From assembly GCA_012845835.1 (NCBI GenBank), contig JABAKD010000023.1:15992702-16056701 (forward strand): a stretch of 64,000 bases of DNA. Reading direction: 5' to 3'. The stretch comes from Undaria pinnatifida. Its lineage: Eukaryota > Sar > Phaeophyceae > Laminariales > Alariaceae. Both the position numbers and the translations under genes were made by a program. Positions 5,622 to 58,122 of this stretch are shown here, in pieces (position 1 is the stretch's first letter; every line of letters starts with the position of its first letter). The notes below the pieces were generated by a model. That model made no database searches. It was not told the DNA's origin and saw nothing but the letters and a program-made list of their open reading frames with translations.

Positions 5622-5990
5622 CAGGGCTTTTCACGGTTCATGACCCGACCCGCGGGTCTGGTCAAGGGGGGTTCAAAATCTCGCGGGTCGGGTCGGGTCG
5701 GGTCACAATGTTTTCAAATCCCACGGGTCGGGTCGGGTCAAGAGGTTTCAAAATCCCGCGGGTCGGGTCGGGTCGGGTGGTTTTGAAACCTCGCGGGTCG
5801 GGTCGGGTCGCGTCAAGAGGTTTCAAAATCGCGCGGGTTGGGTCGGGTCATGACCCGCGAGATACGGGTCACTCGCGGGTCAAGCCATCATGACCCGCGA
5901 GTTGTCTCGGATCCGCCTACTTTCAACTTACAGGTGAGGGCCATTGCCGTGCAGGTGCCCCGCGGGTCGGACCCGCGGACCCGTAAATAA
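5622..5990 (-). repeat. GGGTC minisatellite, copy 1 (possible hAT-like end)
   Basis: Runs of (GGGTC)2-4 alternate with a TTTCAAAATCTCGC spacer. The left edge, CAGGGCTTTTCACGGTTCA at 5622-5640, is the reverse complement of the sequence that ends both downstream units (about 9060-9080 and 9385-9405), so this copy is inverted relative to them. The right edge decays near 5990 without a matching inverted terminus. Translated, it gives only RVGSGR-type repeats. Confidence 0.85.
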
Positions 5991-6119
5991 TACTTAACTC
6001 ACCGCTTCCTGCCTCTCCCGTGCGGATGCTCCGATCATATGTCATCACAGCGTGTAGAACAATCACCAGGCAATACCTTTAGCTACTCGTACCAAAGCGT
6101 ACAGTGTGACGCGAATCCC

Positions 6120-6375
6120 GTACCGGCTGAAGCCGTAGACAGCAGTAGTAATACGGTCATACCAGTACGAAACGTGGCCAAACGTAAAAAGGCGAGGGCA
6201 GTCGTCGTCGAAGCAGCAGCAGCAGCACTGGCAGCAGCATGCACCAACAGCAGACCTCGGATCCTCGCGGATCGCAGCCCCTGCTGACAGATCCACCGCC
6301 CTCTGTGGGCTTGCTGCCTGTGGGGGCTCAGCTAGGCTGCTCGCCGGGGCCGGAGACTTCATAGATAGATGGATA
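6120..6375 (+). repeat. Dispersed repeat D, copy 1
   Basis: This is similar to 8285-8490 in the same orientation: GTGGCCAAACGTAAA, GTCGAAGCAGCAGCA, CTCGCGGATCGCAG, CCCTGCTGACAGATC, GCCGGGGCCGGAGACT. The two copies bracket the hAT-like element at 6387-8246. A (CAG)n run lies in the middle. No product is recognised. Confidence 0.75.
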
Positions 6376-6424
6376 GAAGAATATAGCAAGGGTGTGTTCG
6401 GTACGGCACGTACTGATAAATACC

Positions 6425-6610
6425 GGCGGTATATGCCGCCGGTATTACCGGTACCGGATACTTCGGTAAGTTCGGTGCGACATCAATACCAATACCGGAC
6501 TTTTCGTTAAGTTCGGTACGACATCAATACCGGTACCGGACACGTCGGTAAGATATGCAAAACATCTACCCGGTACAGGGCACTTCGGTACGTTTAGCAC
6601 GATATCAACC
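6425..6610 (+). repeat. GGTACC minisatellite, left array
   Basis: Four degenerate units of about 40 bp contain TACCGGTACCGGA and TTCGGTAAGTTCGGTACG. The array is introduced by the inverted pair TACCGGCGGTATATGCCGCCGGTA and ends in ATATCAACCC...CCACATTTTGACGTCA, an end shared with the array at 21.9 kb. Confidence 0.85.
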
Positions 6611-6894
6611 CGATTCCACCACATTTTGACGTCATCCCTTAGAGCTTTGGCTCCAGGCAGCACTCCAAGCCACACACCCCGGCCCCCAAGCATCTCCCAG
6701 CACACTCGGTATACCGAGACTCTGAGCGCGCATGAGCAAGGGCGCAACTTCCGAGAATGAGGTGGCCTCCAGCAGTGATGCCACCGCTTCTGGTGGCGGG
6801 TCATCTTCGCCAGCTCCCACACACACCAGCGCTGGCGACAGAAGTTACGACGTGGACGTGGCAAATAAGTCCGTGCCGGCGATTTTGCCTGCTC

Positions 6895-6912
6895 CTGTGT
6901 TGTTGTTGTTGC

Positions 6913-6958
<46 letters not shown>

Positions 6959-7260
6959 CTCACATTAACTCGCATAATCAAGTCCGTGGTCACAGGACAG
7001 GCTCCAGTCACTCTGGAGCTGAGGAATACCCCAGGGAAAAACACACACAACCCAAGGTGGTACACGCATATATCACAGCTGACGCAATTCATGCCTCCAC
7101 CAGAAACATATAAAAGTGAAATCGGGAGTCAGTCTACGATGTGCCAGGTCCATGCCGGTGCATACGCCTCATTACTCACGCCTGGAGGAACCAACTATTC
7201 CGATTGCCACCCAAGGAAGACTACCACGTATATATTACACCTAGTATCTATCACTACGCA
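6895..7260 (-). mobile_element. SINE-B, nearly full-length copy
   Basis: Read on the minus strand it runs GACCTGGCACATCGTAG, CTGACTCCCGATTTCA, GGAGGCATGAATTGCGTCAG, GTATTCCTCAGCTCC, GAGCCTGTCCTGTGACCACG, GACTTGATTATGCGAG and an (AAC)n tail of about 19 units (6899-6957 on the plus strand as GTT). The stretch GTAGACTGACTCCC resembles a weak B box, but a full pol III promoter is not convincing. Parallel copies: 11660-11880, and fragments at 2725, 4390 and 35035. Confidence 0.72.
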
Positions 7261-7289
7261 TACGCACGACAGGCGTAAGTCAATTGGAG

Positions 7290-7585
7290 AGAATAAACAA
7301 AGAAAAAAAAAGAAGATAAAGGAAAGGAAAGAAAAGAAAACGAAAAAAACGAAAAAGGCAAGAAAAGAGAACAAAAAGACAAGAAAAGCAAGGAAAGACA
7401 AGACATGAAGAGGAAGCATGGCAAGGAAAAAAGAAGAAGAGAAAAATGAAGAAAGAAAAAGAAAAGAGAGAAAAATGTCATACTAGCAGACCCTAGGAAC
7501 TTGCTAAGGATGGCATTGGGCTAACAGAGGGTATCACGTCCATCATCAATGGCACCTGGGAGAGAACGCAACATGGCGAAGTGTA
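7290..7585 (-). mobile_element. LINE-1 3' end, copy 2
   Basis: Read on the minus strand it carries GTTGCGTTCTC, GCCATTGATGATGG, CCCAATGCCATC, TTCCTAGGGTCTG and TAGTATGACATTTT, then an irregular pyrimidine tail. This matches the segment downstream of the RT relic at 2292-2540. No RT sequence is attached, so it is a 5'-truncated insertion. Confidence 0.75.
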
Positions 7586-7924
7586 CAACTCGCTCACGGG
7601 AGACGTAGGAGTTGCCGGCGGAGATTGGCGTGGACGTCGAAACGATCGACGAGAAGACGGCGCCCTGCTGATAAACCAAAGGGTACCTCACCCTTTGAAC
7701 AGCATATCAAGACAAACAAATATGAGAAAAATTATGAAAATATTAGAACCAAATATAATTGAATTCAATTATATACCTCAGCGGGTACCCCCAGTCAATA
7801 CCGGATTTGCTCTGTACATGTACCGCCAATTTATGTCCATTTTATGTACCTAAGCGCAAGTGTGCGTCGGTATCTTGCCGGCGGTATATACCGCCGGTAC
7901 TGCCAGTATATGTATTCAAGTGTG

Positions 7925-8235
7925 TGCCGGTACCGGTGGTACCGGTACAGACTTTCGTACCGGTACCGGACGCTTCGGTAAGTTCAGTTCGACATCAATA
8001 CCGGCACCGGAAACTTCGGTAAGTTCGGTACGATATCAGTACCGGTACCGGAAACTTCGGTAAGTTCGGTACGACATCAATACCGGTACCGGAAACTTCG
8101 GTAAGTTCGGTATACCTCCAATACCGGTGCCGGACAATTCGGTAAGTTCGGTACGACGTCAATACCGGTACCGCACACTTCGGTAAATACGGTACGACAT
8201 CTATACCCGTACCGAGAATACCGGTACCGTACCGA
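7925..8235 (+). repeat. GGTACC minisatellite, right array
   Basis: About seven units of 40 bp carry TACCGGTACCGGA-AACTTCGG and AAGTTCGGTACGACATCAA. The palindromic cores TACCGGTA and GGTACC recur in each unit. The orientation is the same as in the left array at 6425-6610. Confidence 0.9.
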
Positions 8236-8284
8236 ACACACCCTTGGAAGATAGGTACCTGTACAGCAGCAGTAGTAGCTAGCT

Positions 8285-8490
8285 CGATAATTATCATACC
8301 GGTACAAAATGTGACCAAACGTAAAGAAGCAAGAGCAGTCGTAGTCGAAGCAGCAGCACCACCAGCAGCAAGCACCAGCAGCAGACAATGCATTCTCGCG
8401 GATCGCAGGCCCCTGCTGACAGATCTACTGCCCCAGTTGTGGGCTTGCTAGGCTGTTTGCCGGGGCCGGAGACTGCATAGATAACTAGCT
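8285..8490 (+). repeat. Dispersed repeat D, copy 2
   Basis: Counterpart of 6120-6375. It lies immediately outside the right end of the hAT-like element and ends in GCCGGGGCCGGAGACTGCATAG. The identity to copy 1 is imperfect, with several small indels. Confidence 0.75.
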
Positions 8491-8724
8491 CGCTCGTCGG
8501 ATCGCTCGTCCGGTCGACCCGGTGCACCCATGGTCTAACGTTACGGGCGTGGCTAATTGTCCGTGCGTGGGTTGCGGTCTCTTTCTCATTTTTTCGCTCG
8601 CACACCCCACAATAATGCTGCAAACAGCCGGTAAAAAAGCCAGAGAGCACGACATCTTGGGAAAAGTACGAGGGACCAAGGACCAACCAACCGACCAAGG
8701 TACATATATATCCAGATATGTTTG

Positions 8725-9498
8725 ACCCGTGACTTTTTGAGTTTGACCCGTGAGATATGTCACGGGCCCAGTCGACCCGACCCGCATGAAATCCGAACCT
8801 CACGGGTCAATCGGAATATGGCGGGTCTGGTCGGGTCGGATCAACAGGCTTTCACAATCTCGCGGGTCGGGTCAGGAGGTTTTCAAAATCTCGCGGGTCG
8901 GGTCGGGTCGGGTCAAAAGGTTTTAAAATATCGCGGGTCGGATTGAGGGTCGGGTCGGGTCGGGTCGGGTCGGGTCGGGTCGGGTCGGGTCGGGTCGGGT
9001 CAAGACGTCTCGAAATTCTCGCGGGTCGGGTCGACCCGACCCGACCCGCGAAGTTGACCTGAACCGTGAAAAGCCCTGATTTTTACACCAATCAGCATAA
9101 AACGTCATTTTGCCATTTCGTTCTGGAAATGTTGATTCTGATTCTGGAAAACGTTTTTTTTTCCGAAAGTGATCAACAGGCTTTCACAATCTCGCGGGTC
9201 GGGTCAGGAGGTTTTCAAAATCTCGCGGGTCGGGTCGGGTCGGGTCAAAAGGTTTTAAAGTATCGCGGGTCGGATAGAGGGTCGGGTCGGGTCGGGTCGG
9301 GTCGGGTCGGGTCGGGTCGGGTCAAGACGTCTCGAAATTCTCGCGGGTCGGGTCGACCCGACCCGACCCGACCCGCGAAGTTGACCTGAACCGTGAAAAG
9401 CCCTGATTTTTACACCAATCAGCATAAAACGTCATTTTGCCATTTCGTTCTGGAAATGTTGATTCTGATTCTGGAAAACGTTTTTTTTTCCGAAAGTG
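8725..9498 (+). repeat. GGGTC minisatellite, tandemly duplicated 330 bp block
   Basis: A block of about 330 bp occurs twice in direct tandem: 8839-9170 and 9171-9498. Each contains GATCAACAGGCTTTCACA, a (GGGTC)7-11 run, the hairpin CGCGGGTCGGGTCGACCCGA... (about 9020-9050 and 9342-9378), and a unique tail ACGTCATTTTGCCATTTCG. The units differ mainly in the number of GGGTC copies. The upstream edge (8725-8838) holds more degenerate GACCCGTGA motifs. Confidence 0.92.
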
Positions 9499-9506
9499 TC
9501 CATATT

Positions 9507-9994
9507 TTAGACCTACTTTATGGGAAAAAATATTTTTGGCTCTCAAAACTGAATTCTGGGCCAATTATGCCAGTTTTACTCGGCTGGGCTGTCGAAAACA
9601 CGGATACACTCTTTAAGATCCATCATGTAGTTTTACGAGGGCTTTCTGGAGCAGTTCTCCGTTTCTCTAGGGTCTCCTTTGGATTTTTGGTGCAACAAAT
9701 TAGTTTTCGGAAATATGCAATGTTGCTCAAAACTGGGGCCAAAAATAATGGATTTTTGAGAATATTTGGCTAAAAATCATGAGGTTGTCAAAACTGGCAA
9801 ATTGGACGAACAGACACACCACGAGTCTGGAGAAACGGATAAGTGCATCAAAAAGCTCTCGGAAAATTACGGAGAGCATTCTGAGGAGTCTATAGGTGTT
9901 TCTGATGTCGTCCCGCCGAGTAAATCGCGTATGATCAGCCAAAAATCTCAGTTCTGAGGGCCCAAAAATAATTTCCCATAATAGTTGGTCTTAG
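9507..9994. repeat. Foldback: long diverged inverted repeat
   Basis: The left arm (about 9507-9735) aligns in reverse complement with the right arm (about 9766-9994). Examples are TTAGACCTACTTTATGGGAA against TAAGACCAACTATTATGGGAA, TTTACTCGGC in both, and TCTCCGTTTCTC against TATCCGTTTCTC. Conceptual peptides of both arms keep matching patterns (RFSRVSFGFLVQ against RFSRLVVCLFVQ). The arms are clearly diverged, so the inversion is old. No functional gene is implied. Confidence 0.75.
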
Positions 9995-11253
9995 TCGAAA
10001 ATCGAAATTCAATGTGGGGAGTTTGTGCTACTAGGCGTGGCATGTTGTATGTAACCGAAGCCGGCCACGCCAATTGGTGCCATGTCGTCGGCTGATTGAA
10101 AGGCGAAGAGGCGAGAAGCCACCATTGCGAGAGGTAGGACCACCGGAGCAGCCGCAGCGCGGCCTCCTGAGGCCCTTAGCACAGCCTAGACCGCCTGCGA
10201 CGCTTCGAAAACAATCGAGACCGCCGCAAACCCAGTTTTTCGTCGCGCTGCACCTGGAAAGTTACACGACCAACTACCACATCACGACTTCGCTCAGAAG
10301 TTCGACCGCTGTATCCCCGTCGCTGCTGCCCGTGTCGGGCGGCGGGGTGGCGCCAGCCCATCCAAGAGACGCCTGAAGCCATAGCCTCCTAGCCGCTGCC
10401 GGCAAAAACAATCTGCCGCTAGCCGCGGCGCTCCGGGGAGGACGCGAGCCATCGCTCGCCTCGGTCGTTGCCCACGGGTGTTCGTTGACCCTTTTGCGTT
10501 TTTTTCTTTATTTTTGACCGCACTACGTCGTTCCTTGGTAAGAAGCAGTCGATTTTTTCGTGTATTTTTGATGAAATCTACTGAGAAAAATCGGATTACG
10601 GTTCCCCGTGCTCTTCGTTAATCTGGGCTCTACTATTATGTGAAAAATTGAGCGATTAGGCCACTGTTTGTGGTACCCCGATGTAGACCATAGATCTTGA
10701 TATATACAAGATTCGCCTACAATAAGATCTGTGGACACTGCATGTGGAGACGAATGTTGGTTCTGACAATTTCCAAGATCGAAAAATCCACCGGAAAGGG
10801 ATGTTTCGTCCCGATCTCAGGCTGAAATCCGGATAAGTTACTTCTTCTCCATATTTCGTCACGATGTTAGGCCGCAAACTTGCCCCCGCGCGCACACACG
10901 CACAGAACAGCAGTATCTCGCGAAGGTGCGACAGCCCCGTGGGCCATTTGCCGAGCAGCTTCCGCTTGACCCTCGCGCACCTCGATCGCCATGGTCTGTA
11001 GCGTGTTGTGGCGCTGCGGCGTGTTTGTGCGTGTTTCGACTTTTCGAAATCGTACAACCACCCCTCTGAAAAATGCTAACGAAGATTTTTAACATTGCTG
11101 TTAGCTTCCGCATCTAGACTCGTTTTTACCATGCTTGTTTGGAAATGTTACGTCGGCATCTTAATCTTGAGGCGGCAAAACGAATGTCAGGAACATCTGT
11201 GACCTGGTTCGGGGTACCATAAATAACGGCCTTGATTTCTGGTGATGAGTGTT
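9995..11253. other. Intergenic; one weak coding candidate on the minus strand
   Basis: 10020-10500 is GC-rich with proline/arginine-rich open frames only. On the minus strand, 11061-10867 gives a 64-residue frame with a hydrophilic helix-like stretch (TLQTMAIEVREGQAEAAR) resembling genuine coding sequence, but no family is recognised and no splice context is established. Nothing else was found. Confidence 0.3.
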
Positions 11254-12062
11254 CTTGTTTTGAGGCTCCAGAAATAACTGCATGAGAAATAAGGGGCGTC
11301 CATTTTACGGCTTTTGATTTTTGGGGAGTGGATTTTATTTTGAATTGGTAGGTCTCGTTTTCCCGTTGGCTTTTATTTTTAAAAAATCTGGCACGTACAC
11401 TGTCGCCGGTGACGTTAGGTCGCCACAGCCTTTGCTGCTGTCTCTGCTGCTGTGTTGGTTTTGATGGTGGCGGTGCCGCTGCTGTCGCGTTTGTGTGAGG
11501 GCGTACTGTCTCGCACACAACAAGCGCGGTATGCTGTAGTAGTTGTGTTTGTGATTATTTGCTCTGCGTGTTGGGTGATGCCTACAGCAGACAGATGTCA
11601 TTCCAAGGTGTCATACCAGGTACCAGTAGGCAGTGGTGACATGTGATAGTTGGTGCGGGGAAGGAGTGTGGAGTTGGCACATCGTAGGCTGACTCCCGAT
11701 TGTACTGTTTTATATTATTCTTCTGGCGGAGGCATGAATTATGTCAGTTATGATATATTCGTGTACAACTTTTGGTTTTGTTTGTGCGTGTTTTCCGTGG
11801 GGTATTCCTCCACTCCGGAGTGACTTAAGCCTGTCCTGTGACCACGGACTTGATTGTGCGAGCTAATGTGAGAACTATAGTAGTTCTGAGAGGATGGAAG
11901 AGCTGTTATTTCTGGGCTCAGAAATCACCAAATCCGCTGATTTCTGGGCTCGATTATTTCTAAACCCAGAAATAACGATGATTTTTGGTCCCACAATGGA
12001 AGTTTTTATTTTGTGGCGAGGAGATCCCTGTTAAAAGAGAGAATTGTCGCTCAATATTTGCC
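11254..12062 (+). repeat. Dispersed repeat A, copy 2, with internal SINE-B
   Basis: Counterpart of 320-959. Relative to copy 1 it carries about 210 extra bases between GACATGTGATAGTTGG and GAGAGGATGGAAGAGCTG, which correspond to SINE-B. The order of events is clear: repeat A was in place first and the SINE inserted later. Confidence 0.8.
11660..11880 (+). mobile_element. SINE-B inserted in repeat A
   Basis: The copy runs from GTTGGCACATCGTAGGCTGA through TTCTGGCGGAGGCATGAATT, GGGGTATTCCTCCACTCC and CCTGTCCTGTGACCACGG to GCGAGCTAATGTGAGAAC. It has lost the (AAC)n tail. It aligns along its full length with the minus-strand copy at 6957-7160. Confidence 0.75.
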
Positions 12063-13500: not shown

Positions 13501-13501
13501 A

Positions 13502-15021: not shown

Positions 15022-15324
15022 TTGACCATCCACGTACACGGGTGGTAGGTGCATGGCTGGGTCACTCACGGAGACAGAAGTCACGTAATCCGGAGAGCCA
15101 TCGAGCTGAGAAGAGAAATAGAGTAGGGTTTCGAAGTGCGGCTGAGGTGCTTTTCTTCCCCAGCCACGTGGTGACCCCAATCATGAGAGATTGGAGACCA
15201 CATACAATTTTATTATTAGTTCTCGGGGAACCAACCTGGTTCCGCCGCATCTCCTCAGATGCGTTACGGTTTCACAAACCACAAATAATATCCCAATCAG
15301 GCTTTGATACAAGCACAAACCAAC
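15022..15324 (+). repeat. Dispersed repeat F, copy 1
   Basis: About 300 bp is nearly identical to 19289-19591, with shared edges at TTGACCATCCACGTACACG and ACCAACA. The unit begins TG and ends CA, like a solo LTR, but the 5 bp on either side do not match in either copy, so LTR status is not established. There is no coding capacity. Confidence 0.85.
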
Positions 15325-15379
15325 ATTCCCCCTACTTGTAACACAGTCATGATAACGCCCATTCAAACCGCCAAGCGAA

Positions 15380-21366: not shown

Positions 21367-21955
21367 CTTGAGGGTGTTTTGGGTACGGTACGTACCGAGG
21401 CATACCGCCGGTATATTCCGCCGGTATTAGCTCAAGGGTGTGTTGGGTACGGCACGTACCGAGGCATACCGCCGGTATATTCCGCCGGTATTACCTGTAC
21501 CGGACACTTCGGTAAGTTCGGTATGGCATCATTACCAGTACCGGACACTTCGGTAACTTCGGTACGACATCAATACGGGCACCGGACACATCGGTAAGTT
21601 GGGCACGATATGGATACCGGTACCGCCGGTACCTGTACAGAATTTCATACCGGCACCGGGCGATTCGGTAAGTTCGGTACGCAATCAATACCGGTACCGG
21701 ACTCTTTGGTAAGTTCGATACAGCATCAACACCGGTGCCGGACACTTCGGTGAGTTCGGTTCGCCATCAATACCGGTACCAGACACTTCGGTACGTTCGG
21801 TACGTCAATACCGGTACACCGGGTACCGGTATGCCGTTACCGGTATGGAGGTTTGTACCGGAGTTGGTACCGGTATCGGCACGACAATCGATGCCGGTAC
21901 CGGACACTTCAATAAGTGTGGTACCATATCAACCCCGTACCGCCACATTTTGACA
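21367..21955 (+). repeat. GGTACC minisatellite array, second locus
   Basis: Two head units (GGGTACGGTACGTACCGAGG at about 21389, and again after CAAGGGTGTGTTGGGTACGG at 21433) are followed by about nine degenerate 40 bp units of the family seen at 6425 and 7925. It ends with ATATCAACCC...CCACATTTTGACATCA near 21955, the same end as the array at 6610. The left edge resembles the hAT-like terminus. No matching right terminus or target duplication was found nearby. Confidence 0.85.
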
Positions 21956-22444
21956 TCAAAAGAAGGTTGGGTTGCTTCCTATAACATCCGATTCCGAGCT
22001 TCAGATTTTTACTCTTCTATCTGAGAAATTGATCGGTGTTTTTATGCAATCCGATATTGTTGCAAAATCGGACGGGAAAAATCTGATGTGAGAATCCAAT
22101 GGCCTCAAGTCGTCAGAATTTATCTGATGATTCGGCCTGTCGGATTCTCAAATCGAAAATGGCATCAGTCTTTCATCACGTAAAGATGTAACTGAGCAAA
22201 GCCTGGTGCAGCAGCAATACGGGATTCACACAAATGTACGAGTAACAATCGCGATATGTCGGACTACGACTATACCCACGATGCGCGAACGCAGTCGACG
22301 CATCTCTCCGCAGCCACACACTATCTAGCTGCTAGCTGTCGGCGGATGCGGGCTCGGACCTAGAGACCAAGAGGGGCAGCGCACCCCGCGCCCGGCTTTT
22401 GTGGCTACGTATCGTATATATATACGAGAGTACACCACAGCAGC
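21956..22444. other. Intergenic, no gene recognised
   Basis: AT-rich first half with repeated ATCCGAT/TCGGAT words, then unremarkable sequence up to the next array. Confidence 0.3.
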
Positions 22445-22674
22445 AGCAAACACGGTACGTACCGAGACATACCGCCGGTATTACGGATACCGGAAGCTTC
22501 GGTATGTTCGGCATGACATCAATACCGGTACCGGACACTTCGGTAATTTCGGTACAACATCAATACCGGTATCGGGTACTTCGGTAAGCTCGGTACAAGG
22601 TCAATAACGGTACCGGATACTTCGGTAAGTTCGGTACGACATCCATACCGGTACCGTACCGAACACATCGTTGG
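22445..22674 (+). repeat. GGTACC minisatellite array, third segment
   Basis: Starts GGTACGTACCGAGACATACC and holds about five units with TACCGGTACCGGA and AAGTTCGGTACGACATCC. It ends in CCGTACCGAACACATCGTTG, a degraded version of the right terminus at 8246. Confidence 0.85.
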
Positions 22675-22710
22675 CAAAAATGACAGGGCCCGTCCAAAAG
22701 GGGAAAAATC

Positions 22711-23898
22711 CAGCGATGTGTACGGAGTGAAAATACACCCGCGGAGCGGTTTTTTGCGGAGCGGTTCGATCAAACCGCACCGTTGCGTGACATTTGTAGC
22801 GGATGATATCCGCTCCGCGACAATCCGTGACTGTTCCCAAAAGCGGATATCCGATCCGCTCCCCTCCGAAACACACTATTGAAAAATCCGCTCCGCTCCG
22901 TGACATTATACAAAAAATGCTCACCTCCGTATGGATTATACCTGCGCTTTTCAAACCGTGAAAAGCGGTTGTTCTGTAGAGCGGTTCGACCCACTCCGCA
23001 GGTACTGCGTAGCATATCTCATGGATCAAACCGTTGAAAGTCACGGTTTTTCCACGGTCGCAATTGTTCAGAATGCTGGATAACCTACCGTAGAAGGACT
23101 TGCATGGCATCCATAGCAACGGCATCCGCCGCCCGCCCTGCGTAAACAATTTATGAACAGGTGGTCGTTTTGGTGTTTGTACACTGTTGGTTTCACGTTT
23201 TCACTGTTTTGGACTTTTTTCATGGTGGGTCAGACCCTGTTGCCGTCGCGCGTCTGCTGCCCCGGCCCCCGTCACTCTGTGCTGTATGATCAGCAAATAC
23301 ACTTTCAAGTACCTAGTAGTCAATATTCACTAGTCTCGTCTTTGTTTTGTTTTCTCGGGGGACGCAACGTTTGCTTGTGCACCTTTCTCCTTTAGTGCTG
23401 GGCGTTGGGCGCCACAAGGTTGCTCAAACAGCAACGTCCATTTTTTCCGCCAGTACACAACGCATCCTTTCGTACCTACTGGTATTTACTCACGGACACC
23501 CGTATCATGTTTACGGTTAACCTATCATTTTAACGGAGAATTGGTACGGTGCGCCGTGGGGAAAGGCCGCGGTTTTGTGCGGTTTGCTCGATTTGCTCGA
23601 CGGAGCGAGATAAACCACTCCGTGAAAAACAACGTGCGACGGATATCCGGTCCGCAACAATCCGTGACATATGTAGCGACGGATACCCGCTCCGCGACAC
23701 ACTCGAAAACATCCCCTCCGCTCCGTGACATATTCAAAAGCGGATATCCGGTCCGTACTAATCCGTGAAGTATGTAGCGGCTGATATCCGCTCCGTACTA
23801 ATCCGTGACTTTTCACACGGGCGGATATCTGCTCCGCGAGATTTTGAGAACACAAGAAGCCGCTCCACGGAGCGGTTCTTACTCCGTACACATCCCTG
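22711..23898. mobile_element. hAT-like non-autonomous element, GCGGATATCCGC family
   Basis: Left end CAGCGATGTGTACGGAGT (22711-22728) and right end, read inward, CAGGGATGTGTACGGAGT (23898-23881) differ at one of 18 positions. The flanking 8-mers GAAAAATC and GAAAAGTT agree at 6 of 8. Both flanks of the interior (22740-23060 and 23560-23880) hold repeated GCGGATATCCG-C and CTCCGCGACAATCCGTGAC units of about 50 bp, many palindromic. The middle 450 bp is non-repetitive and codes for nothing recognisable. No transposase is present. Confidence 0.65.
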
Positions 23899-24640: not shown

Positions 24641-24651
24641 AAATCGCACCT

Positions 24652-42524: not shown

Positions 42525-42960
42525 GAAAATATTATCACCGGGTGTGGTATCCTGTGGGGGGTGTGGTATCTTGTGTAGCCCCGGTGATAAGAGTGCTGGT
42601 CGCGGCGGCCCCCAGGAGGTGTGATGAACCAGGGGGTGTGATAGCACGTCCGACCACCCACAGGGTACGTTTGGGGGTGTGATAAATGTGGGGGTGTGCT
42701 AAACCAGGGGGTGTGATAGCACGTCTGAACACCCACAGGGTGTGTTCGGGGGTGTGATAAACCAGGGGGTGTGATAACCTCCGAACACCCACAGGTCGTG
42801 CTTGAGGGGGGATACCGAAACGCTCCTTGTATAGTTGAGCCGCTGCTGCCGCACACTTGAAGGGGTGTGGGATTCCGGGGAGGTGATACCTGTCCGAACG
42901 ACCGCACACACGGAAGGTTCTTGTGGGGACAAAATTCCTGAGCACATTACCTCGACAATG
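42525..42960. repeat. Repeat K array: GGGGTGTGATA motif with inverted ends
   Basis: The unit ATTATCACCGGGTGTGGTAT...GTAGCCCCGGTGATAA at 42531-42594 has inverted ends of about 12 bp. It is followed by about seven copies of CAGGGGGTGTGATA and ACACCCACAGGG words. Related copies lie at 46570-46730. Confidence 0.75.
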
Positions 42961-43323: not shown

Positions 43324-45638
43324 TCACAGCCCCTCGCCCTCGTCATCGCTGATATCCACCACCAGCACGCCCGTGTCGTCGTCGTCGTTGATTTCCAGCA
43401 CCTCCAGCAAGTTGCCGGTTCCCGACGACGAGTTTGCCATGTCCGCACCGGCCGATGGCGCGTCGAGGGGCTCCCCCTGGGCGTTGGAGCCAAGCTCCTC
43501 GTTGGCCCAGGCCTCGACCTCCGACCCGTCGAAGGGAAGCAGCAGGCCAGCCTTCCTCTAGCTCGAGCGGATCTCATCCGCGGTCAAGGCATCCCACGCC
43601 TTCTTCACCCACTGTGCCCCCAACCCCCGCGAAGGGGCCTCCGGGTAGCCGCGTTCGTCGTGCTTGGCGTCCTTGGAAGCCATGTGGTCGTCGTACAACT
43701 TGGACAGGTTTCCCTTGAAAAGCTTGTTGACGAGGCCATCGCACGGCTGAAGCTTGGGAGTCAGGCCTCCCGGGATGTGAAACAGCGTCGTTTTGGACTC
43801 TGCCATCGCCTCCTTGGACGCGTCCGTCTTGTGGACGGTGTAGTCGTCCCACGCAAGCAGGGTGTCAAGCTGACGGTAGCCGCCCAGGCGGCCCTGCCGC
43901 CCCGGGCGCTGGTTCCACACCTGCGGCACTCACACGTCGTCGAACACCCGCTGGGAGTGCCATCCCTTCGGGTCCACGGCGTAGGCAACACCTCGGGGGT
44001 ACGGGCAGCCCTTCTTGTCCTTGTAGTTCTTGAACTCGCGCTCGATGCTGTTGGCGGCAGGGGGCTTCCTTTCGGCGTGGGCTGGCCCTTGAAGATGAGG
44101 AGGGGCGGCAGCTTGCTGCCGTCCGCGAACACCGTCAGGACCGACGTGATGCGCATCTTCTCCTTGCCACCGGTTTTGACAGCAACCTCCGACTCCCCGG
44201 TGTTCTGCGAGGTTCCGTAGAGCAGGGAAAAGCGACGGCAACGTGGGGTTTGTAGAAACGATTTTTTTGTCAAGATTCGGAAAGTGACAGCAGTGGTCGT
44301 AAGAAAACATCACCAAAATCCGCGGAGACCAGGACACGAAGCAAAACACGGAGACTACGTACATGTAGGTAAATACCCCATCACAAAAAATAGGTGGCCC
44401 GAGAAATCGTTGACGCATGAAAAAACAGGAACTGCTACATCTTACCCAGTAGGAGCGAAACGAGGACAACATTATACTCAACGTGCACAGTGTCCTTCCC
44501 CGGGCTCTCGAACCACGTAGGAGTTTAGTCCATGTTGCCGATCTGCGCCAAGGGGAACTTGGGCTTCGGCCCCGAAGGCACTCCAGCGCCACTCCCGCCC
44601 GCGCTGCCGCTCGCGCTGCCTCCCGCCCCTGCTGCAACCCCCAGGCATTCGACTCCGTCCGCAAGTTCTTGCGCGGAAGGCACGTCATACTTCAGCCTCC
44701 TCCACTCCTTGATGGCCTGCCTGGCCACGGTCCAGCCGGAAGGGAGCTTCTGGCCTTGACGGGTGACGGCTCGCAAAGAAAAGCGGTACTCCCGGAGAAA
44801 CCTTTTGCACCACGCCGTCTGCCTCTTCTTGTACCTGACGTTGCCCTGGAGGTCGGATGCCGGCGGCCTCACCCCGAAGAAGGTCGGGTTGAGCTTGTTG
44901 GCCTTGTTCTTGATCATCCTCGTCGAAACACGGGCAGAGATGCCCTCAGAACGCAGGTCATTTATCCAGTCCACGATCTCACGCTCGGCCTCCACGTCCG
45001 TCCTCACTCGTCCAGTGTTCAGCGACATGCGGTTGTTGGCCTTCTTCCTGCCCTTCCGTCCCTTGAGCTTGTCCTCCTGCGCAAGCGCGGCTTCGTACTT
45101 GGCGATGTCCCTGACCCACGCCGCCAACGTAGCCTTGTCGGGAATCCCCAGGGCTGTGCTGGCGTAAGATATTCCGACCGTGCCGTCCGGCCCTTGCGCC
45201 CCCTTGACGCGTTTCTTCGAGTACCTCACAGCATTCACCGTGAAGCCCAGAGGGTAGCGCTTCCTTTGGCTTCCACCACCGAGGTCGGGAATCGGGAAGT
45301 CCGGCGGCTCCAACTCTAGCTGCCCTTTCTTCCTCTTGCCCTTGTTCTGCGCCGGCGTACCGAAGAGAACGTCGCCGAGCCCATCTCCCCACTCTGTCTC
45401 TCCGGGAAACATGATGTCCCCGGACGAGCCATCGTTGGCCACCGTTGCTCCTGGCGCTGGTGCTGGAGCTGTTGCTGGAGCCGATGCTGGACCTGGTGCC
45501 GCTGGTGCCGGTGCTGAAGCCGGCGCTGGAGCCGATGCTGGAGCTGGTGCCGCTGGTGTCGGTGCTGGAGTCGGTGCTGGTGCTGGAGCTGGTGACGGTG
45601 CTGCTCCAGATAGAGGCGCCCCTGGCTTGCCGCCAGCC
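43324..45638 (-). pseudogene. Pogo-like (Tc1/mariner superfamily) DDE transposase, inactivated
   Basis: This is a decayed cut-and-paste transposase. Exon 1 (45638-44483) follows a pyrimidine-rich splice acceptor (TCTCTTCTAG). It encodes a Pro/Ala-rich N-terminus, an HTH-like part (GISYASTALGIPDKATLAAW), a CENP-B-type HTH (EREIVDWINDLRSEGISARV), and the start of the DDE domain, where the first Asp sits in GNMD at about 44528. A GT-AG intron (44482-44205) then joins in frame to AVKTGGKEKMRITSVL and LPPLLIFKG. The second and third catalytic Asp are visible in LLAWDDYTVHKTD (about 43850-43815) and LQPCDGLVNKLFKG (about 43750-43710), followed by an acidic tail. Inactivating changes: TAA at 44525-44527 directly after GNMD, a frameshift near 44080, TGA at 43930-43932, and TAG at 43558-43560. 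The upstream first exon was not identified. Confidence 0.85.
44205..44482 (-). other. Likely intron in the pogo-like relic
   Basis: The donor GTTGAG follows codon CAC (ends 44483) and the acceptor CCTCGCAG ends at 44205. Removing 278 nt joins DTVH to NTGESEVAVKTGG in phase, which matches the spacing expected for pogo-like DDE domains. Translation of the intron itself gives unrelated sequence. Confidence 0.6.
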
Positions 45639-46400
45639 CTAGAAGAGACAAACGGAGACAATCATGTCCGGGATGGCACGAAGCGGTCAATGTTAGAACG
45701 CACAAAAACATGTGTCGTGTGGGCAAAAACCAAATCATGCTTTCGCATAAAAATGTGCTGGATAATTTTGAATTATCAAGGGCACCGTTTCGAATTTTCG
45801 TAATGCCGTTTGCGGTTGAAAGTACCGTTGTGGTGCACGACACATGTGCAAAACAGGCCGCGGCTGCATCATAATCATAATCAGCCGCAACAAATCAGCG
45901 ATAATTTTACGACGAACACACATGATATTTCAAACATGTACATATAAAATTGGTAAATGCGGGGTGTCGTAGTAAAAAGTAAAAAAACATGTGCAAAGCA
46001 GGCGTCCCATCGAACATTGGAACATTCCTCATGTACGGTATGTATGCGAGCTGGAAAGAAAGCTGCTGCATTTCTGCAACATAAATCATACGCACACGAT
46101 TTTCATCGTAAAATTACCTACTACGGTAACCGGCAACGTGTGGCCCAAAAAGCTAGAGGTACACAAGCAGCAGATTAAAAAAATGTCTACCGAAAAGAGT
46201 GGCGAAAAAAAAAAGAAAAGCTACACTCACAGCAACATCTGAAAAAATGTCTACCGCGAACGTGTGGCTAAAAAAAACGTGAAAAAAAAGTCGAACCCTG
46301 GAGTGCGGGTGGCGCAAAAAGCCAACCCACAATTCGGGTGATTGCACGTTTCGACACCAGACGCGGATCGATACTACGCCAAATCCACGAAGCACACACA
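45639..46400. other. Upstream flank of the pogo-like relic
   Basis: Probable intron or 5' region of the transposase gene. AT-rich with A-runs at 46200-46220 and 46270-46290. A local duplication occurs: AACATGTGCAAAGCAGGC at 45987 resembles ACATGTGCAAAACAGGCC at 45842. No other gene is visible. Confidence 0.35.
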
Positions 46401-46735
46401 AATTTCTCACTTGGATCGTTCTCCCGTGCCGACGGAAGTGTTGCGCCCCTGGTTTCCACACGGGGTGTTCCCCCCGCACACAAGGTGTGGTGTTGTGTGC
46501 CCACGCGGCAGATGTTCTATGACCCCGGTGGTATAAAGGAGGGGGCCCGTAAATGTATGAGGCGTAACTAAAATTATTACCGGGGTGTGGTATCTTGTGT
46601 AGCCCCGGTGGTAAATCGATGGTTGCAAAAATGCGCCCAAAATTATCACCGGGGTGTCGTATTCTGTGGGGAGTGTGGTATCTTACGTGGGTGTGTTATC
46701 TGGTGTAGTTTACGGTATGCTCTCGTTACCCCGGC
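46400..46735. repeat. Repeat K, second cluster
   Basis: ATTACCGGGGTGTGGTATCTTGTGTAGCCCCGGTGGTAA-like units (46573-46613) and ATTATCACCGGGGTGTCGTAT (46652) match the K unit at 42531. With the first cluster it brackets the pogo-like relic at roughly 0.4 and 0.9 kb, so K may form the subterminal part of that transposon or be separate insertions. Confidence 0.65.
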
Positions 46736-47009
46736 ATATAAGTGAACATTCATACATACGTAGCAACACACACCCTCTCCTCTTTGTGCGTGTTATTGCA
46801 TAATATTACGCACAAAGAAGGTGAAACGAAACGCATGTTGCGCTGTTACGTTTTAGTTTGGGCTAAACGGTCGCAAATTTCTTGTTTTCCGGGGCATATA
46901 ATCCCTACTCGTTGTACGTACCACAAATTTTATGTTGCTGTTTATTGTGTATACCCACCGCGATCGTAGATGTAGATGGGTGGACATGTCAGTTTTAATG
47001 TGAAGAACA
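46736..47009. other. Spacer between repeat K and the Copia LTR
   Basis: AT-rich, no gene. ATGTGAAGAACA at 46999-47010 is repeated at 52939-52950, just outside the other LTR, and may be residual flanking similarity. Confidence 0.3.
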
Positions 47010-47479
47010 TGTCGATATAATGTGGATTTGTGTGGAACCTGTGGGTGGCAGCCAGCAAGGACTGATCCAAGGGCTACAGTAAAACAGATGTCTGCGTGTG
47101 TGGGGGGATACCACAGCTGCAATAAACAAAGAGAACCAGAATGCTGGTTGAAGCACGATGTCTTGGTGTCTTCATTTCACATTTACAATAAATTAATCTC
47201 GATAATGCACCTGCGGTAACTCTCGTCCTGTGGCAATGTAGTAGAGCCGCAAGGTTGAGCTAGATGTCCCAACCAGGAGAAAAGATAGACGATGCACGTC
47301 GCAATCTCAGGGTACGCGGACAAAGAACTGAGGTCGATATCTGGCCAAGAACTATCCTCGTACGTATCTGAAAATACCCGTTACACAAAAATGCGGTACA
47401 ACCTAATTCATATGCGGTGCAATTTGAACCACTGAGATTCAACACATGTATAGAATATGTTATAGCGTAAGATCTGACA
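47010..47479 (-). repeat. Copia 3' LTR
   Basis: Matches 52441-52906. Its outer end (minus-strand 3' end) lies near CACATTATATCGACA, and its inner end begins TGTCAGATCTTACG at 47479 on the minus strand. The two LTRs differ at roughly one site in ten by eye plus several indels, so the insertion is old. Confidence 0.88.
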
Positions 47480-48470: not shown

Positions 48471-48487
48471 CGACCGAGTTAGCTACA

Positions 48488-52370: not shown

Positions 52371-52440
52371 AATAACAATGAACAAGAAGAGAGAGGACAA
52401 ATAAACTTAGGGTCCTCGCGTAATACGAGATCTCGCAACC

Positions 52441-52906
52441 TGTGGATATAATGTGGATCTGTGGGACCTGTGTGTAGCAGCCAGCAAGGACTGATCCAAG
52501 TGCTACAGTAAAACAGATGTCTGCGTGTGTGGGTGGATACCACAGCTGCAATCAAGGAGAACCAGAATTCTGGTTAAAGCACGAAGACCAGATGTCTTGA
52601 CTTCACTTTTATAATAAATTAATCTCGTTGATATACCTGCGGTAACGCTCGTCCTGTGTCAATGCAGTAGAGCCGCAAGGTAGAGCTAAACGTCCCAACC
52701 AGGAGAAAAAGGTAGACGATGCACGTCGCAATCTCAGGGTACGCGGACAAAGAACCGAGGTCGATACCCGACCAAGAACTATACCCGTAGGTATCTGAAA
52801 ATACCCGTTACACAAAAATGCGGTACAATCTAATCCAAATGCGGTGCATTTTGAACCACTGATATTCAACACATGTATAGAATATGTTATAGCGTAACAT
52901 CTGACA
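52441..52906 (-). repeat. Copia 5' LTR
   Basis: Starts on the minus strand with TGTCAGATGTTACGC at 52906 and ends with ATTATATCCACA at 52441, giving TG...CA termini. The adjacent primer-binding position reads GGTTGCGAGATCTCG, which is not the common TGG-initial site. The outer flanks show no exact 5 bp duplication (GAACA against GAGCG). Confidence 0.88.
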
Positions 52907-52994
52907 GAGCGCATGTGTGAAACCATTATACGAGTTTGATGTGAAGAACACCCGTATGATGCGTACGTATGAATGCTTTCCTACCTATATCGCC

Positions 52995-53152
<158 letters not shown>

Positions 53153-53199
53153 TACACGAGCACATGGCGAATCTCAAGCGATTTCACTGCCCTTTTTTT

Positions 53200-53480
53200 T
53201 CACACTTGTACTTTCCAACTTCTGAACAAGCCGTGGTCACAGGTGTCATCCCTTCTTCCCCCCGGTTCTTGCCCTCAGTTTTTATCGCGCATAGGGTTCA
53301 GCAATCCTACTGCTCGTCGATGTTTCATCGAGTGTTGCTACCTCACGCTCTCACGCTTTCCGGAAGTCAATTTGTGCACAGGATAAAGTCCCTACGAACT
53401 GATACGAGTATGCACTCGCGGGGACTCGAACTCACGAAGCTGACCTATAACAGGCTCGAGGATAACCTGATATGCCACCG
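53200..53480 (-). mobile_element. SINE-A, copy 2
   Basis: Read on the minus strand: GGTGGCATATCAGGTTATCC, a B box GTGAGTTCGAGTCCCCG at about 53435-53419, AGCAACACTCGATGAAA, GCTGAACCCTATGCGCG and CCTGTGACCACGGCTTGTTC. It aligns along its full length with 2831-3110, except for a CATCGACGAG/AGTCAACGAG difference and a few indels. Confidence 0.8.
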
Positions 53481-54526: not shown

Positions 54527-55138
54527 TTAGAACAAAGTTCCCCTCCGGGAAGTGCCTAGGGGAGTGGCACAAGAGCGAAACCTAAGCATCCAACATCTGA
54601 CTGCCTGTGGGCAAATAAGATTTTTTTGGTTGTGGTGAAAACTATGTTCTTGTCCGCATCTCGAGAAGCGGAGTGTGGGGAGGCGCCCTCCTGGGGACGG
54701 TTCGCTCTCTCCGCGTCGTGGTGGAAAACCGTAAAGACATGGTAATCCTATCAGTACGTGTCCAGCACGAGTACTCGCACGATGTGGACTTTTTGTACGG
54801 GCGACGCTTGCGCAGTAAAATTTGGAAGTTTTCGTCGTGAAAAGTATATGGACGAAAGGTGGGTTTTCAACCGGCAAAAAAAAAACAGCAGTTGTTCCGC
54901 GCGCGGTCTTTCTGTCGTGGTTGGTTTTGATGTTTTTTTCTTTATTTCGTATGGGATTCAGCCATTTCAGATTAGGTACTCTTTTTGTCTTGTTGAGCCA
55001 GATATTGAATTTCACTACGAGTGATCCACGCCAGGATGGGCAATCATCTCCCTTCACCAGCTCGTCGCAGACAGTGCACGGAATGATAAATTGCTGTATC
55101 GCGTCATATGTCGCTGAGATAGAGAAGCCCTCTCTCAT
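54527..55138 (-). CDS. Uncharacterised 203-codon ORF (doubtful)
   Basis: It begins MREGFSISATYDAIQQFIIP, then CTVCDELVKGDDCPSWRG, a Cys-containing hydrophilic start that looks coding, but the second half overlaps the GC-rich repeat related to 17380-17460 (PPRRGESEPSPGGR). No domain is recognised. If real, only the first 60 or so residues would be authentic. Confidence 0.22.
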   Translation of the reverse strand: MREGFSISATYDAIQQFIIPCTVCDELVKGDDCPSWRGSLVVKFNIWLNKTKRVPNLKWLNPIRNKEKNIKTNHDRKTARGTTAVFFLPVENPPFVHILFTTKTSKFYCASVARTKSPHRASTRAGHVLIGLPCLYGFPPRRGESEPSPGGRLPTLRFSRCGQEHSFHHNQKNLICPQAVRCWMLRFRSCATPLGTSRRGTLF

Positions 55139-55929
55139 GGAGCATCAGCGCCGATATTATCCACTGCTGTTTGCGTTTTAGAGTCAAGGAAAATCACGCT
55201 GAATTGTTTTTTGATCGTCGTCCGATTCAAAATCGTCCCCTCGAGGAGACGAATTTACTTTGCCTATCAACGGCGAAGTTCGAGTACCAACCAAACCATC
55301 GATTTGCTCTTGTACGTATACTGCTGTACTGCTGTATGTAGTACTGTACACCACGTATGGGTATGCCACACGCGCGTGATGATGTTGCCTGCTGTTGCTT
55401 GTGTTGCTGGGCACGGTTGCAGCGTTGTCTGTGTTATCTGTATGTTCACTGTTGTTGCGTGCACATGGCTGGGTGCGTGCTCGCGGGGGGGTAGAAACAC
55501 TAATTCATGATCGGAAATTTAATATGATAACAATCATTGATGCAAAAGTCTTAAAATCCAACGGTCCTAACATTTTCGTCCAGAATGGCGATGCCGCCTA
55601 CACCAGCAGCAACAGACAGGTAATCGATTACATATACGAACCAGGCCCCGAAAAAATCAACTAGCCACACGAGTACGGCGCAGATGGATGTTCCACACAC
55701 GCACGGTGTTACCTGCTGGTGGTGCTGCTGGTCGGCAGTTTTTTAACGTTGCTGTGCTCTCTGCGTATTGGCTGTGCTCATGGCTGTGTTCATGATAAGA
55801 CAAGAAACAGACCGAATGTCAATGTTACCTCTGGGTTTGGTACGCGCGCAAAGGGTATAGTACCATAAAAAAGTATACCCTTTGTACGCGGGCACGATGT
55901 TGGATGTTGCGGCAACCCGAGAATTTGCC
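55139..55929. other. Intergenic, no gene recognised
   Basis: CTGCTGTACTGCTGTATGTA near 55320 is another instance of the GCAGCAGTACGTA word seen at 16-17 kb. Nothing else is supported. Confidence 0.3.
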
Positions 55930-56100
55930 TTATCCGTGCCCAAAGCCAACAATTTTTAAATGGCTTGCCATGCGCGGCACACCGCACGGATCGCGCCCAA
56001 ACCTTTGGCAACGTGACCCCAACAATCGAAAGTGCCCACCCCCTCTAACGTTTCGGATAAAAGTGCGAGCACGAAGAGGTGTGCCCGAAGAAAAGCAATA
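55930..56100 (-). repeat. Dispersed repeat G, copy 2
   Basis: Reverse complement of 24470-24640 with about 20 percent visible differences: GGATCGCGCCCAAACCT, GGCAACGTGACCCCAAC and TTTCGGATAAAAGTGCGAG. It is followed by a T-rich tract at 56148-56185. Confidence 0.7.
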
Positions 56101-56943
56101 CGACAATTATACGTCTACATACATCGAAATATATATTCAAGTATATGTTTTTTTTCCTCTCTTTTTCCCCTTTTTTTATGGTCTGGCTTGTTTTGTTGGG
56201 TTTTTCCATACCCGGGACGCTAGCATTTCACTTGCTTTACCTTGATGAATTGCAACTGTGTGGTTTACCCTGTCGCACAGTCTGTGACCACATAATTTGT
56301 ATGGTAATTTTCATCTCTGGGACGCAAGGACAGCACGAGCACTGGGTGTGATGATGTCGTTGGGCGAAAAAACATAACATCTGATTTACGGCCTGATACC
56401 TGTAATACTTACTGCTGTGCCAGAAACGTTCTCGTACCTACAGAACATTATACAGGTATAGAGTAAAAGCCAAGTACACGCAGAGTGCATGGCGATAAAT
56501 GAAATCTGACGATCCCGTGCACGACTGATGTGTGGTGGAACATGAGTACGCCCGGTATAAAGAAGAAAGCTCGCCTACATCCTTTTCTGCGATAGAATGG
56601 TCAGCGCCAACCGTCGCCGTCACGATACCACATGCATGAACAGCCATCTCTTTTTTGTTATCGTGGACAGCTCAAGCAGTGTCTGGTGCTGGTACCGCCA
56701 CCGCTGTCGCACCCCCTCCCCTCTAACAGGACAGGGACAGAAATTGAAAAAAAAAGGAAAAAAAAACAAAAAGGAAGACGGGGAGGCCGGTACGACTCTT
56801 TGAGAATCGTATCGCCCGCTGTACGCCTCCTTTCTCGATGGGTAGCGATCGACCCCAGGTTTCGATCGACAACTGCTGAGGCAGCTGCTCCTCGCGTTTT
56901 TACCTGATATCATACTCTCATACCATGCTGTGGTGGTATTTTT
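56101..56943. other. Intergenic, no gene recognised
   Basis: T-rich tract, then mixed sequence with an A-run at 56746-56770. GTATTTTT at 56936-56943 is the left target duplication of the next element. Confidence 0.35.
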
Positions 56944-58114
56944 CAAGGGCTTGCATGGGGCCGAAGCCCCATGCAAGTGGGATGGGAGGGTTTCGCTCGC
57001 CGCAGGCGGGAAACTTTTGGGTCCCATATTTGTGTGGGATGGGATCCCATGGTCATTGTTGCCGCTCCCACTTTAAAAAATGGGAATGGGACCACTTGCG
57101 TTTTACTTGGGATGGGAATTGGACGGGAAGTTGGAATGTTTTGCAATAGTGGGACCAAATGGGATTCCACAAAAATCGAGATGAGGTGGGCTGGGACTGT
57201 TGTGTCATAGGGGAGATGGCGGGACGCCGCCGGGAAATGTGGGATTTAACATGGGATCCAGTATGGGACAACACCGGGCAAGACAATCTGGGAACCTGCG
57301 CGGGAGTAGGTAGCCCTTCCCCAGCATACATACACTACATGGACCAAAAGTGGGGCTTGCAAACAGACCAACAAAAGCACGTTCGTGGTCGTCTTATTGT
57401 CTTATTAATTGATTAATTGGTAGCCCAAAACGAAAACAACGATAAATCAAGAACCAACCCCGATCGAAAAGCAAACAATGTTTGCAGAGGTGTGTTAACT
57501 TGTGTTAACTCCAAGGATCAATGAACATGCCCCACCAACCTTAAACAAAGTAGACAAGAAAAAAATGAAAAAATGGGTACATGAATGCATCCAATGGAAA
57601 AATGAAAAATGAACACGGACAAAAGTCGGGTATCTGTGACAAAGGCTGAGAGCCGCCGAAGCCGGTAGGGTCCGACATAGAGTTGTGTGTGTGCCCTGCT
57701 GCCTGCGGCACAAAAACAAACGTGTCAAGATCTTTTTTTTTTTTACATTTAGATTCAACCCGCGTGCGTGGGTGTTGGCCCAGTGGCCCGGGCGCTGCGG
57801 GACATTCTATTTGGAATAAAATGGGGAACTGACATATGGGAAGTCTTGCGCTCACAGTGCACACTGGGACGGGAGTGGCTACTTTTACAGTGGGATTGGG
57901 ACGGGAGTAGCTGTGCCGATGGTGGGATGGGAAGCAGGTGGGATGGGAGCGGTGCTATATCGGTTATGTGGGTGTAAGTGGGGCAAGAATTTTAGATGAG
58001 ATGGGACTTGGTGGGATGGGAAGCGGGTATCCCACTGTGGGATTCCCATCCCATTCCCATCCCATCCCATATTAGATGGGATTCCCATCCCATTTGTTCC
58101 CATGCAAGCCCTTG
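56944..58114. mobile_element. hAT-like non-autonomous element, GGGATGGGA family
   Basis: The termini CAAGGGCTTGCATGGG (56944-56959) and its exact complement (58099-58114) form a perfect 16 bp inverted repeat. The flanks GTATTTTT (56936-56943 and 58115-58122) are a perfect 8 bp target duplication, the hallmark length for hAT. Both ends of the interior consist of TGGGATGGGA-type repeats, many palindromic (GGGATCCC). The middle (57330-57770) is unique and codes for no transposase, so movement would need a transposase supplied in trans. A 12 bp-stem hairpin lies at 56949-56976. Confidence 0.85.
56949..56976. repeat. Perfect 12 bp hairpin at the left end of the element
   Basis: CTTGCATGGGGC and its exact complement GCCCCATGCAAG flank CGAA. 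The terminus has been duplicated in inverted orientation right next to itself. Confidence 0.9.
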
Positions 58115-58122
58115 GTATTTTT

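Follow-up and report, generated by a model that had tools for sequence, protein, structure and literature searches.

Candidate hAT-like transposon families with family-specific subterminal repeats in a 64-kb window of the brown alga Undaria pinnatifida

Introduction

Short inverted tips accompanied by repeated motifs near both ends are known from several cut-and-paste transposons, and the present study characterised four families of short elements of this kind in a 64,000-nucleotide stretch of the Undaria pinnatifida genome (assembly GCA_012845835.1, contig JABAKD010000023.1, positions 15,992,702 to 16,056,701, forward strand), hereafter the window, in which all positions are counted from the first base. 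Subterminal AAACGG hexamers of Ac are bound cooperatively by the transposase (PMC3260210). In Hermes the subterminal repeats are contacted by BED domains; a pair of these repeats makes up a quasi-palindrome next to the tip, and their orientation is antisense at one end and sense at the other (PMC10368747).

Extra binding sites are also documented outside this group, since the tandem repeats of the ends of Galileo contain additional sites for its transposase (PMC3688188), and multiple binding sites have been described as a seemingly convergent trait that could be positively selected (PMC3573991). A similar selection scenario was suggested for Tetris and linked to satellite DNA (PMC4079207), while several satellites borne by miniature inverted-repeat transposable elements (MITEs) have been reviewed (PMC9659126). 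A preliminary description of the window proposed, as one explanation, that arrays inside transposons grow because more sites favour mobilisation; this idea is already in print for Galileo (PMC3573991) and Tetris (PMC4079207).

Results

Four elements with inverted ends and 8-bp flanks

A hAT-like anatomy, comprising CA-R-GG-type tips, 8-bp flanks and subterminal repeats that are specific to each family and almost restricted to the elements, is supported in the window. The CA-R-NG tip rule and an 8-bp target site duplication are traits of the hAT superfamily, for which CA-R-GG tips of 16-20 bp are classic. Every CA..TG inverted pair 80-5000 bp apart was scanned, with thresholds of at least 15/16 for the inverted repeat (IR) and at least 6/8 for the match between the 8-bp flanks. 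Five of the 57 pairs that passed the IR threshold also had flanks of at least 6/8, namely four elements and the left end at 5622 re-paired with a duplicated right end at 9405. The elements are listed below with tip identities over 16 and, in brackets, 20 positions, together with a second GGTACC element.

5622..9078, + strand: GGGTC-family element, tips CAGGGCTTTTCACGGTTCA, 16/16 (19/20), flanks 6/8, split by the nested element at 6387-8246
5614..5621 and 9079-9086, unstranded: 8-bp flanks of the GGGTC element, AAATTTAC and ATTTTTAC, match 6/8
6387..8246, + strand: GGTACC element 1, nested in the GGGTC element, tips CAAGGGTGTGTTCGGTACGG, 16/16 (20/20)
6379-6386 and 8247-8254: flanks of GGTACC element 1, GAATATAG and GAAGATAG, match 7/8
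21433..22673, + strand: GGTACC element 2, tips 17/20
22711..23898, + strand: GCGGAT-family element, tips CAGSGATGTGTACGGAGT, 15/16 (18/20)
22703-22710 and 23899-23906: flanks of the GCGGAT element, GAAAAATC and GAAAAGTT, match 6/8
56944..58114, + strand: GGGATGGGA-family element, tips CAAGGGCTTGCATGGG, 16/16 (17/20), with scattered GGGATGGGA repeats
56936-56943 and 58115-58122: flanks of the GGGATGGGA element, both GTATTTTT, match 8/8

The tips of the four elements follow the CA-R-NG rule (CAGGG, CAAGG, CAGSG and CAAGG), with 15-16/16 identity between ends, and their flanks match at 6/8, 7/8, 6/8 and 8/8 in the order listed above, as expected of a hAT-type duplication. The remaining 52 pairs were dropped, having flanks of at most 3/8 and being mostly CAA/TTG microsatellites. 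Dinucleotide shuffles (n = 500) yielded 130 IR pairs of at least 15/16 in total and none with flanks of at least 6/8, and a flank match of 6/8 arose by chance in 963 of 199,726 random CA..TG pairs. The four elements with paired CA..TG ends and 8-bp flanks reported by the preliminary description are confirmed, and only these four were found; the interval that it gave, 5622-58114, is merely the span from the first element to the last.

A looser scan (IR 13/16, flanks with at most one mismatch) gave 6, 1, 0, 0, 2, 0, 0, 0 and 0 matches for flank lengths from 4 to 12, flanks of 4 bp being easily matched by chance. When inverted repeats were sought generically with flanks of other lengths, four rows were listed: the elements at 6387 and 56944, the latter again in shifted form, and 7090-11736 with flanks of 4 bp. 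The candidates 26344-26494 and 26344-26988 (tandem repeat, IR 14/16) were dropped as elements, as was 56974-58096 as a separate one (within the GGGATGGGA element, IR 13/16).

By eye, no 8-bp flank repeat was seen around GGTACC element 2, the left end of which carries a 64-bp tandem duplication (21364-21493) that produces two left tips, one degenerate. A 77% direct repeat (6157-6367 / 8294-8483) brackets the nested GGTACC element 1 at about 20 and 47 bp from its tips; it may stem from an old tandem duplication, with the element having inserted close to the junction.

Family-specific repeats lie almost entirely within the elements

Sizeable arrays lie inside both ends of the GGGTC and GGTACC elements, as follows (TRF, Tandem Repeats Finder).

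5653..5849, + strand: left GGGTC array, TRF periods 35 and 75
8832..9048, + strand: right GGGTC array, TRF periods 31 and 41, with (GGGTC)11 at 8947-9001 and a 15-bp-arm palindrome beside the tip
9171..9498, + strand: second, tandem copy of the GGGTC right end and some 92 bp of adjoining flank, containing (GGGTC)9 and (GACCC)4; the second right tip ends at 9405
6446..6608, + strand: left array of GGTACC element 1, four 41-bp units
7958..8203, + strand: right array of GGTACC element 1, six 41-bp units in the orientation of the left array
21492..21932, + strand: left array of GGTACC element 2, eight 41-bp units, not all contiguous
22482..22645, + strand: right array of GGTACC element 2, four 41-bp units

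Counts of words picked from the elements, which show confinement and not independent discovery, were 46 inside versus none outside for GTCGGGTC in the GGGTC element (the duplicate right end being counted inside), 41 versus 1 for CCGGTACC/TTCGGTAA in the GGTACC elements, 14 versus 3 for GCGGATAT/CCGCTCCG in the GCGGAT element and 10 versus 1 for GGGATGGG in the GGGATGGGA element. All 22 of the 41-bp units lie in the two GGTACC elements on the + strand, and none occurs elsewhere in the window on either strand at a match of at least 25/41. The GCGGAT element carries GCGGATATCCG-like and CCGCTCCG repeats scattered at both ends; these are the real words at the place where GCGGATATCCGC had been named, a motif with no exact match.

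The preliminary description saw repeat-filled interiors in all four families. Family-specific repeats do occur in each, but sizeable TRF arrays are limited to GGGTC and GGTACC, with no array in the GCGGAT element and a single 29-bp row in the GGGATGGGA element. TRF arrays cover 2117 of the 7454 bp of element spans, 386 of the 4231 bp of a pogo-like span described below and 3098 of the 52,315 bp elsewhere, the first two figures including tracts other than the family units. Arrays lying independently of inverted termini had been named as an observation that would speak against the proposed design, and they exist in part, since 3098 of the 5601 bp of TRF arrays are outside the elements, although their units are different ones. 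Non-family tandem repeats were also noted inside GGTACC element 1, A-rich at 7299-7475 and TGT at 6898-6958 (TRF).

The GGGTC repeats lie mostly on one strand (19 + / 6 - on the left, 23 + / 8 - on the right) and, given the uniform orientation of the 41-bp units, one-strand order is a trait of the arrayed families, not of all.

Palindromes near the tips and words shared between tips and interiors

Palindromes within 80 bp of the tips had a mean stem of 8.3 over ten ends of five elements, which are not independent as two of the elements belong to one family, versus 4.55 in 1500 controls, and none of 5000 random sets reached as high. The strongest were at the GGGTC right end, the left end of GGTACC element 1 and the GGGATGGGA left tip, where the arms measure 12 bp; stems of such length occurred in 0, 1 and 1 of the 1500 controls, respectively. 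Those of the GCGGAT element are modest, with 76 of 1500 controls as long at the better end.

Sharing of 6-base words between tip and interior was clearest in the GGTACC family, whose tip contains TCGGTACG, present six times in the interior; a result this good was reached by no shuffled tip and by 3 random places, of 2000 each. Weaker sharing was found for GCGGAT (15 shuffled, 28 random) and GGGATGGGA (17, 31). With 7-base words the corresponding counts were 0 and 4 for GGTACC, 25 and 31 for GCGGAT, 19 and 44 for GGGATGGGA, and 247 and 284 for GGGTC. All these counts are favourable by up to about twofold, as the better-scoring of the two tips was set against controls of a single tip; random places falling within elements were skipped yet kept in the denominator of 2000.

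The GGGTC, GGTACC and GCGGAT tips are alike, GGTACC and GCGGAT agreeing by eye at 12 of the first 15 positions. Uncorrected permutation p values for the three pairs were 0.02-0.04 ungapped and 0.04-0.05 gapped, versus 0.08-0.29 for the other three of the six pairs, a likeness that does no more than suggest shared tip ancestry. The GCGGAT element also holds, at 22940-23060 (placed by eye), the GGGTC-tip words TTTTCACGG/CCGTGAAAA, and the two families may be related.

Array length has changed in place and the 41-bp units have probably decayed

Over 322 aligned bp, 2 substitutions separate the two copies of the GGGTC right end, but one has (GGGTC)11 and (GACCC)3 where the other has (GGGTC)9 and (GACCC)4. 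The array therefore changed length in place, from 11 to 9 or the reverse, after a local duplication, and because such near-identical local copies differ in their arrays, array length here outpaces sequence change without transposition.

Identity among the 41-bp units averaged 0.781 within arrays and 0.785 between arrays (1289 of 2000 permutations as large). No within-array homogenisation was seen, and when units were grouped by element 1983 of 2000 permutations were as high, the within-minus-between difference being even lower. As the units are equally alike within and between arrays, the array is older than both insertions and travelled with the family. Differences are equally frequent at CpG and at other positions (26/220 versus 81/682 site-units, by hand arithmetic), and the pattern resembles neutral decay from a once more uniform array common to the copies. 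A core and spacer with unequal constraint (mean 1.97 versus 4.17 mismatches per column) was considered and rejected, the split having been made post hoc and the variance test giving 912 of 5000.

A further, pogo-like element

A fifth element, absent from the preliminary description, has a transposase gene of another type between two groups of repeats further along the window.

42539..42872, + strand: GGGGTGTGRTA repeats on one side of the gene, 9 units with at most one mismatch; TRF 42612-42810
43561..45661, - strand: pogo-like transposase gene (Pfam), broken or intron-split
45961..46680, + strand: GGGGTGTGRTA repeats on the other side of the gene, 4 units

The gene was recognised from HTH_Tnp_Tc5 (PF03221, E 4.3e-5) in the open reading frame (ORF) 44528-45661 and DDE_1 (PF03184, E 2.4e-8) in ORF 43561-43929; ORF 43764-44309, at E 0.26, was below the cut-off. 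With at most one mismatch, GGGGTGTGRTA occurs 14 times in the window versus 1.89 expected, the largest count in 100 shuffles being 6, and 13 of the 14 share one strand and fall within 42539-46680, where the gene separates a group of nine from a group of four. No convincing tips with a TA duplication were found there. An 11-bp inverted repeat, TTATCACCGGG (42532-42542) / CCCGGTGATAA (42580-42590), has an imperfect counterpart at about 46578-46616 (by eye). Of the five cases, the pogo-like element alone carries a transposase gene between its two halves, and the gene is not of hAT type. As repeats flank this gene on both sides, the repeat-packed design is not confined to hAT-like ends.

Other features of the window and searches for outside copies

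The window is eukaryotic in character and rich in transposons, with Pfam domains of copia and pogo type, and ARAGORN found no tRNA in it. The copia-type domains occur among ORFs of its second half, where 89.5% direct repeats 5.4 kb apart (47006-47479 / 52437-52906) are probably the long terminal repeats (LTRs) of a copia-type element. Direct repeats of 96% identity 4.3 kb apart (15022-15325 / 19288-19589) represent a possible young LTR-type element. An ORF resembling a long interspersed nuclear element lies at 1461-2288, and a 1.25-kb dispersed repeat (3117-4368 / 24648-25901, 89% identity) adjoins a stretch that is also present as an inverted copy (2831-3110 / 53198-53478).

Words of 19, 17 and 16 bases from three tips, those of the families besides GCGGAT, gave 0, 3 and 20 loci in viral contigs, about the level of chance by a rough estimate; neither GGGTCGGGTC nor GGGATGGGA was present at any of these 23 loci, which were dropped. 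No match to a 23-base word from the 41-bp unit came up in the genome-contig and viral-contig collections, nor any to a DDE_1 piece in the viral contigs, absences that mean little in collections that are prokaryotic or viral.

Discussion

The probable origin of the repeats

The elements are probably old non-autonomous copies of hAT-like transposons of four families, whose subterminal repeats were originally transposase-binding sites and whose arrays later grew or shrank in place. Four families of cut-and-paste transposon with CA-R-GG-type tips and 8-bp target duplications would have left these copies; by analogy with Ac, Tol2 and Hermes, the repeats inside the tips would be subterminal sites recognised by the BED-type domain of each family's transposase, so that the tips would serve cleavage and the repeats specificity and assembly. 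Slippage or tandem duplication may then have lengthened or shortened some arrays in place, giving minisatellite-like tracts. Membership in hAT, binding to the repeats and an advantage of extra sites are what we infer from this anatomy.

Several results weigh against this explanation. No hAT or BED domain was detected with Pfam among the 172 ORFs scanned of the 181 stop-to-stop ORFs of at least 100 aa in the window. In the brown alga Ectocarpus hAT is rare (4 families, 128 copies, 0.05%), and KDZ, which includes elements with 8-bp duplications, is common (6403 copies, 1.80%) (PMC12477816). The sharing of 6-base words between tip and array was not significant in the GGGTC family (179 shuffled and 250 random places of 2000), and 6-base matches to its tip are more numerous in the interior of GCGGAT (45) than in that of GGGTC itself (26). 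GGGTC spacing shifts by 5-bp steps, as against the rigid phasing reported for Hermes. At five of the ten ends the palindromes were unremarkable, and the number of controls with a stem of equal length varied between 0 and 246 of 1500 from end to end. No column-wise constraint was seen in the 41-bp units, 912 of 5000 permutations being equally uneven. One-strand order fails in the GGGATGGGA and GCGGAT elements, with strand counts of 3/0 and 3/4 for GGGATGGG, 1/1 and 2/1 for GCGGATA, and 3/2 and 4/2 for GCTCCG.

The preliminary interpretation is supported in part, as far as the hAT-like anatomy and the near-confined family repeats go. Against selection as the sole cause of growth, the GGGTC array went between 11 and 9 units in two copies made by local duplication, not transposition, and the 41-bp units show neither constraint nor homogenisation within arrays.

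Alternative explanations

The elements may instead belong to KDZ (Zisupton-like), their subterminal repeats still serving transposase recognition, an assignment that is unlikely but deserves weight. The target duplications of Zisupton measure 8 bp and the termini of Kyakuja are of CA..TG type (PMC12730594), KDZ copies outnumber those of hAT in Ectocarpus (PMC12477816), and the elements have no transposase tying them to hAT: no transposase match to Pfam, whose coverage of KDZ was unchecked, lies inside the four elements among the ORFs scanned. On the other side, Kyakuja has no inverted repeats and makes 7-bp duplications (PMC12730594), and the Ectocarpus KDZ elements include giants, generally above 10 kb (PMC12477816), although short derivatives are possible. 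The flanks observed here fit a Zisupton-type duplication as well and do not separate KDZ from hAT, whereas the combination of 16-20-bp CA-R-GG tips with 8-bp flanks is classic for hAT. Because Zisupton makes such duplications and KDZ is the more numerous in Ectocarpus, hAT membership is probable rather than certain.

A broader scenario, in which hAT-like and pogo-like superfamilies convergently expanded family-specific subterminal repeats (one-strand where arrayed) and copies compete for their transposases by site number and routinely shed new minisatellites, is distinctly unlikely.

We regard as quite improbable that the repeats were never binding sites and are slippage products that expanded in inert copies by neutral hitch-hiking. 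Arrays of nearly identical local copies do differ in length (11 versus 9, 3 versus 4), the 41-bp units lack constraint and GGTACC element 1 also carries non-family tandem repeats; however, the units are family-specific, occur at both ends and have words in common with the tips in three of the four families, and the equal similarity of 41-bp units between and within arrays indicates an array older than both insertions, which moved with the family. This account is not fully exclusive of former binding sites in hAT-like elements, as later neutral growth belongs to both.

That the arrays mainly form hairpins or foldbacks for replication or repair of the ends, rather than for protein recognition, is hardly credible: strong palindromes do lie near one tip in the GGGTC, GGTACC and GGGATGGGA families, but those of GCGGAT are modest, half of the ends do not stand out, and the GGTACC arrays consist of direct repeats on one strand.

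Should the arrays be binding sites, the end sequence and array unit would directly read out the recognition word of each transposase, and copies of differing array length would form a natural dose series for site number versus mobilisation. The alga would then represent a lineage in which several transposon families may seed minisatellites at once.

Comparison with known systems

Literature searches, judged from listings and excerpts, brought up no publication recognised as describing this set of families, which is weak evidence of absence. The KDZ elements share the 8-bp duplications (Zisupton) and the CA..TG termini (Kyakuja) (PMC12730594). The HTH_Tnp_Tc5 and DDE_1 domains link the pogo-like element to the pogo / Tc5-type transposons, and it has GGGGTGTGRTA repeats on both sides.

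The closest likeness is to Ac/Ds, Tol2 and Hermes, which have short inverted tips and several copies of short family-specific motifs near both ends (PMC10368747, PMC3260210), with a palindrome beside the tip in Hermes and Tol2, as here; the families of the window are known from sequence alone. The antisense and sense repeats at the two ends of Hermes would amount to one common strand, an arrangement that the direct one-strand GGTACC arrays would fit. The motifs of those systems are 4-6 bp long and interspersed, whereas two of the families described here have true tandem arrays, with 41-bp units in up to eight copies and pure GGGTC in up to 11.

Galileo, of the P superfamily, and Foldback-like elements likewise have tandem repeats in their ends, with extra binding sites and gain or loss of units (PMC3688188, PMC3573991), but the repeats of Galileo lie within long terminal inverted repeats, whereas the GGTACC arrays of the two ends share one strand. 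Tetris / TIR-220 and the MITE-borne satellites Xstir and miDNA4 resemble the present elements in that tandem units borne by transposons seed satellite DNA (PMC4079207, PMC9659126); unlike them, no free-standing array of these units occurs in the window. Four to five families sharing one design within 64 kb, in this one window, are striking and unusual side by side; what they contribute is a set of well-delimited families of a design already known, not a new principle.

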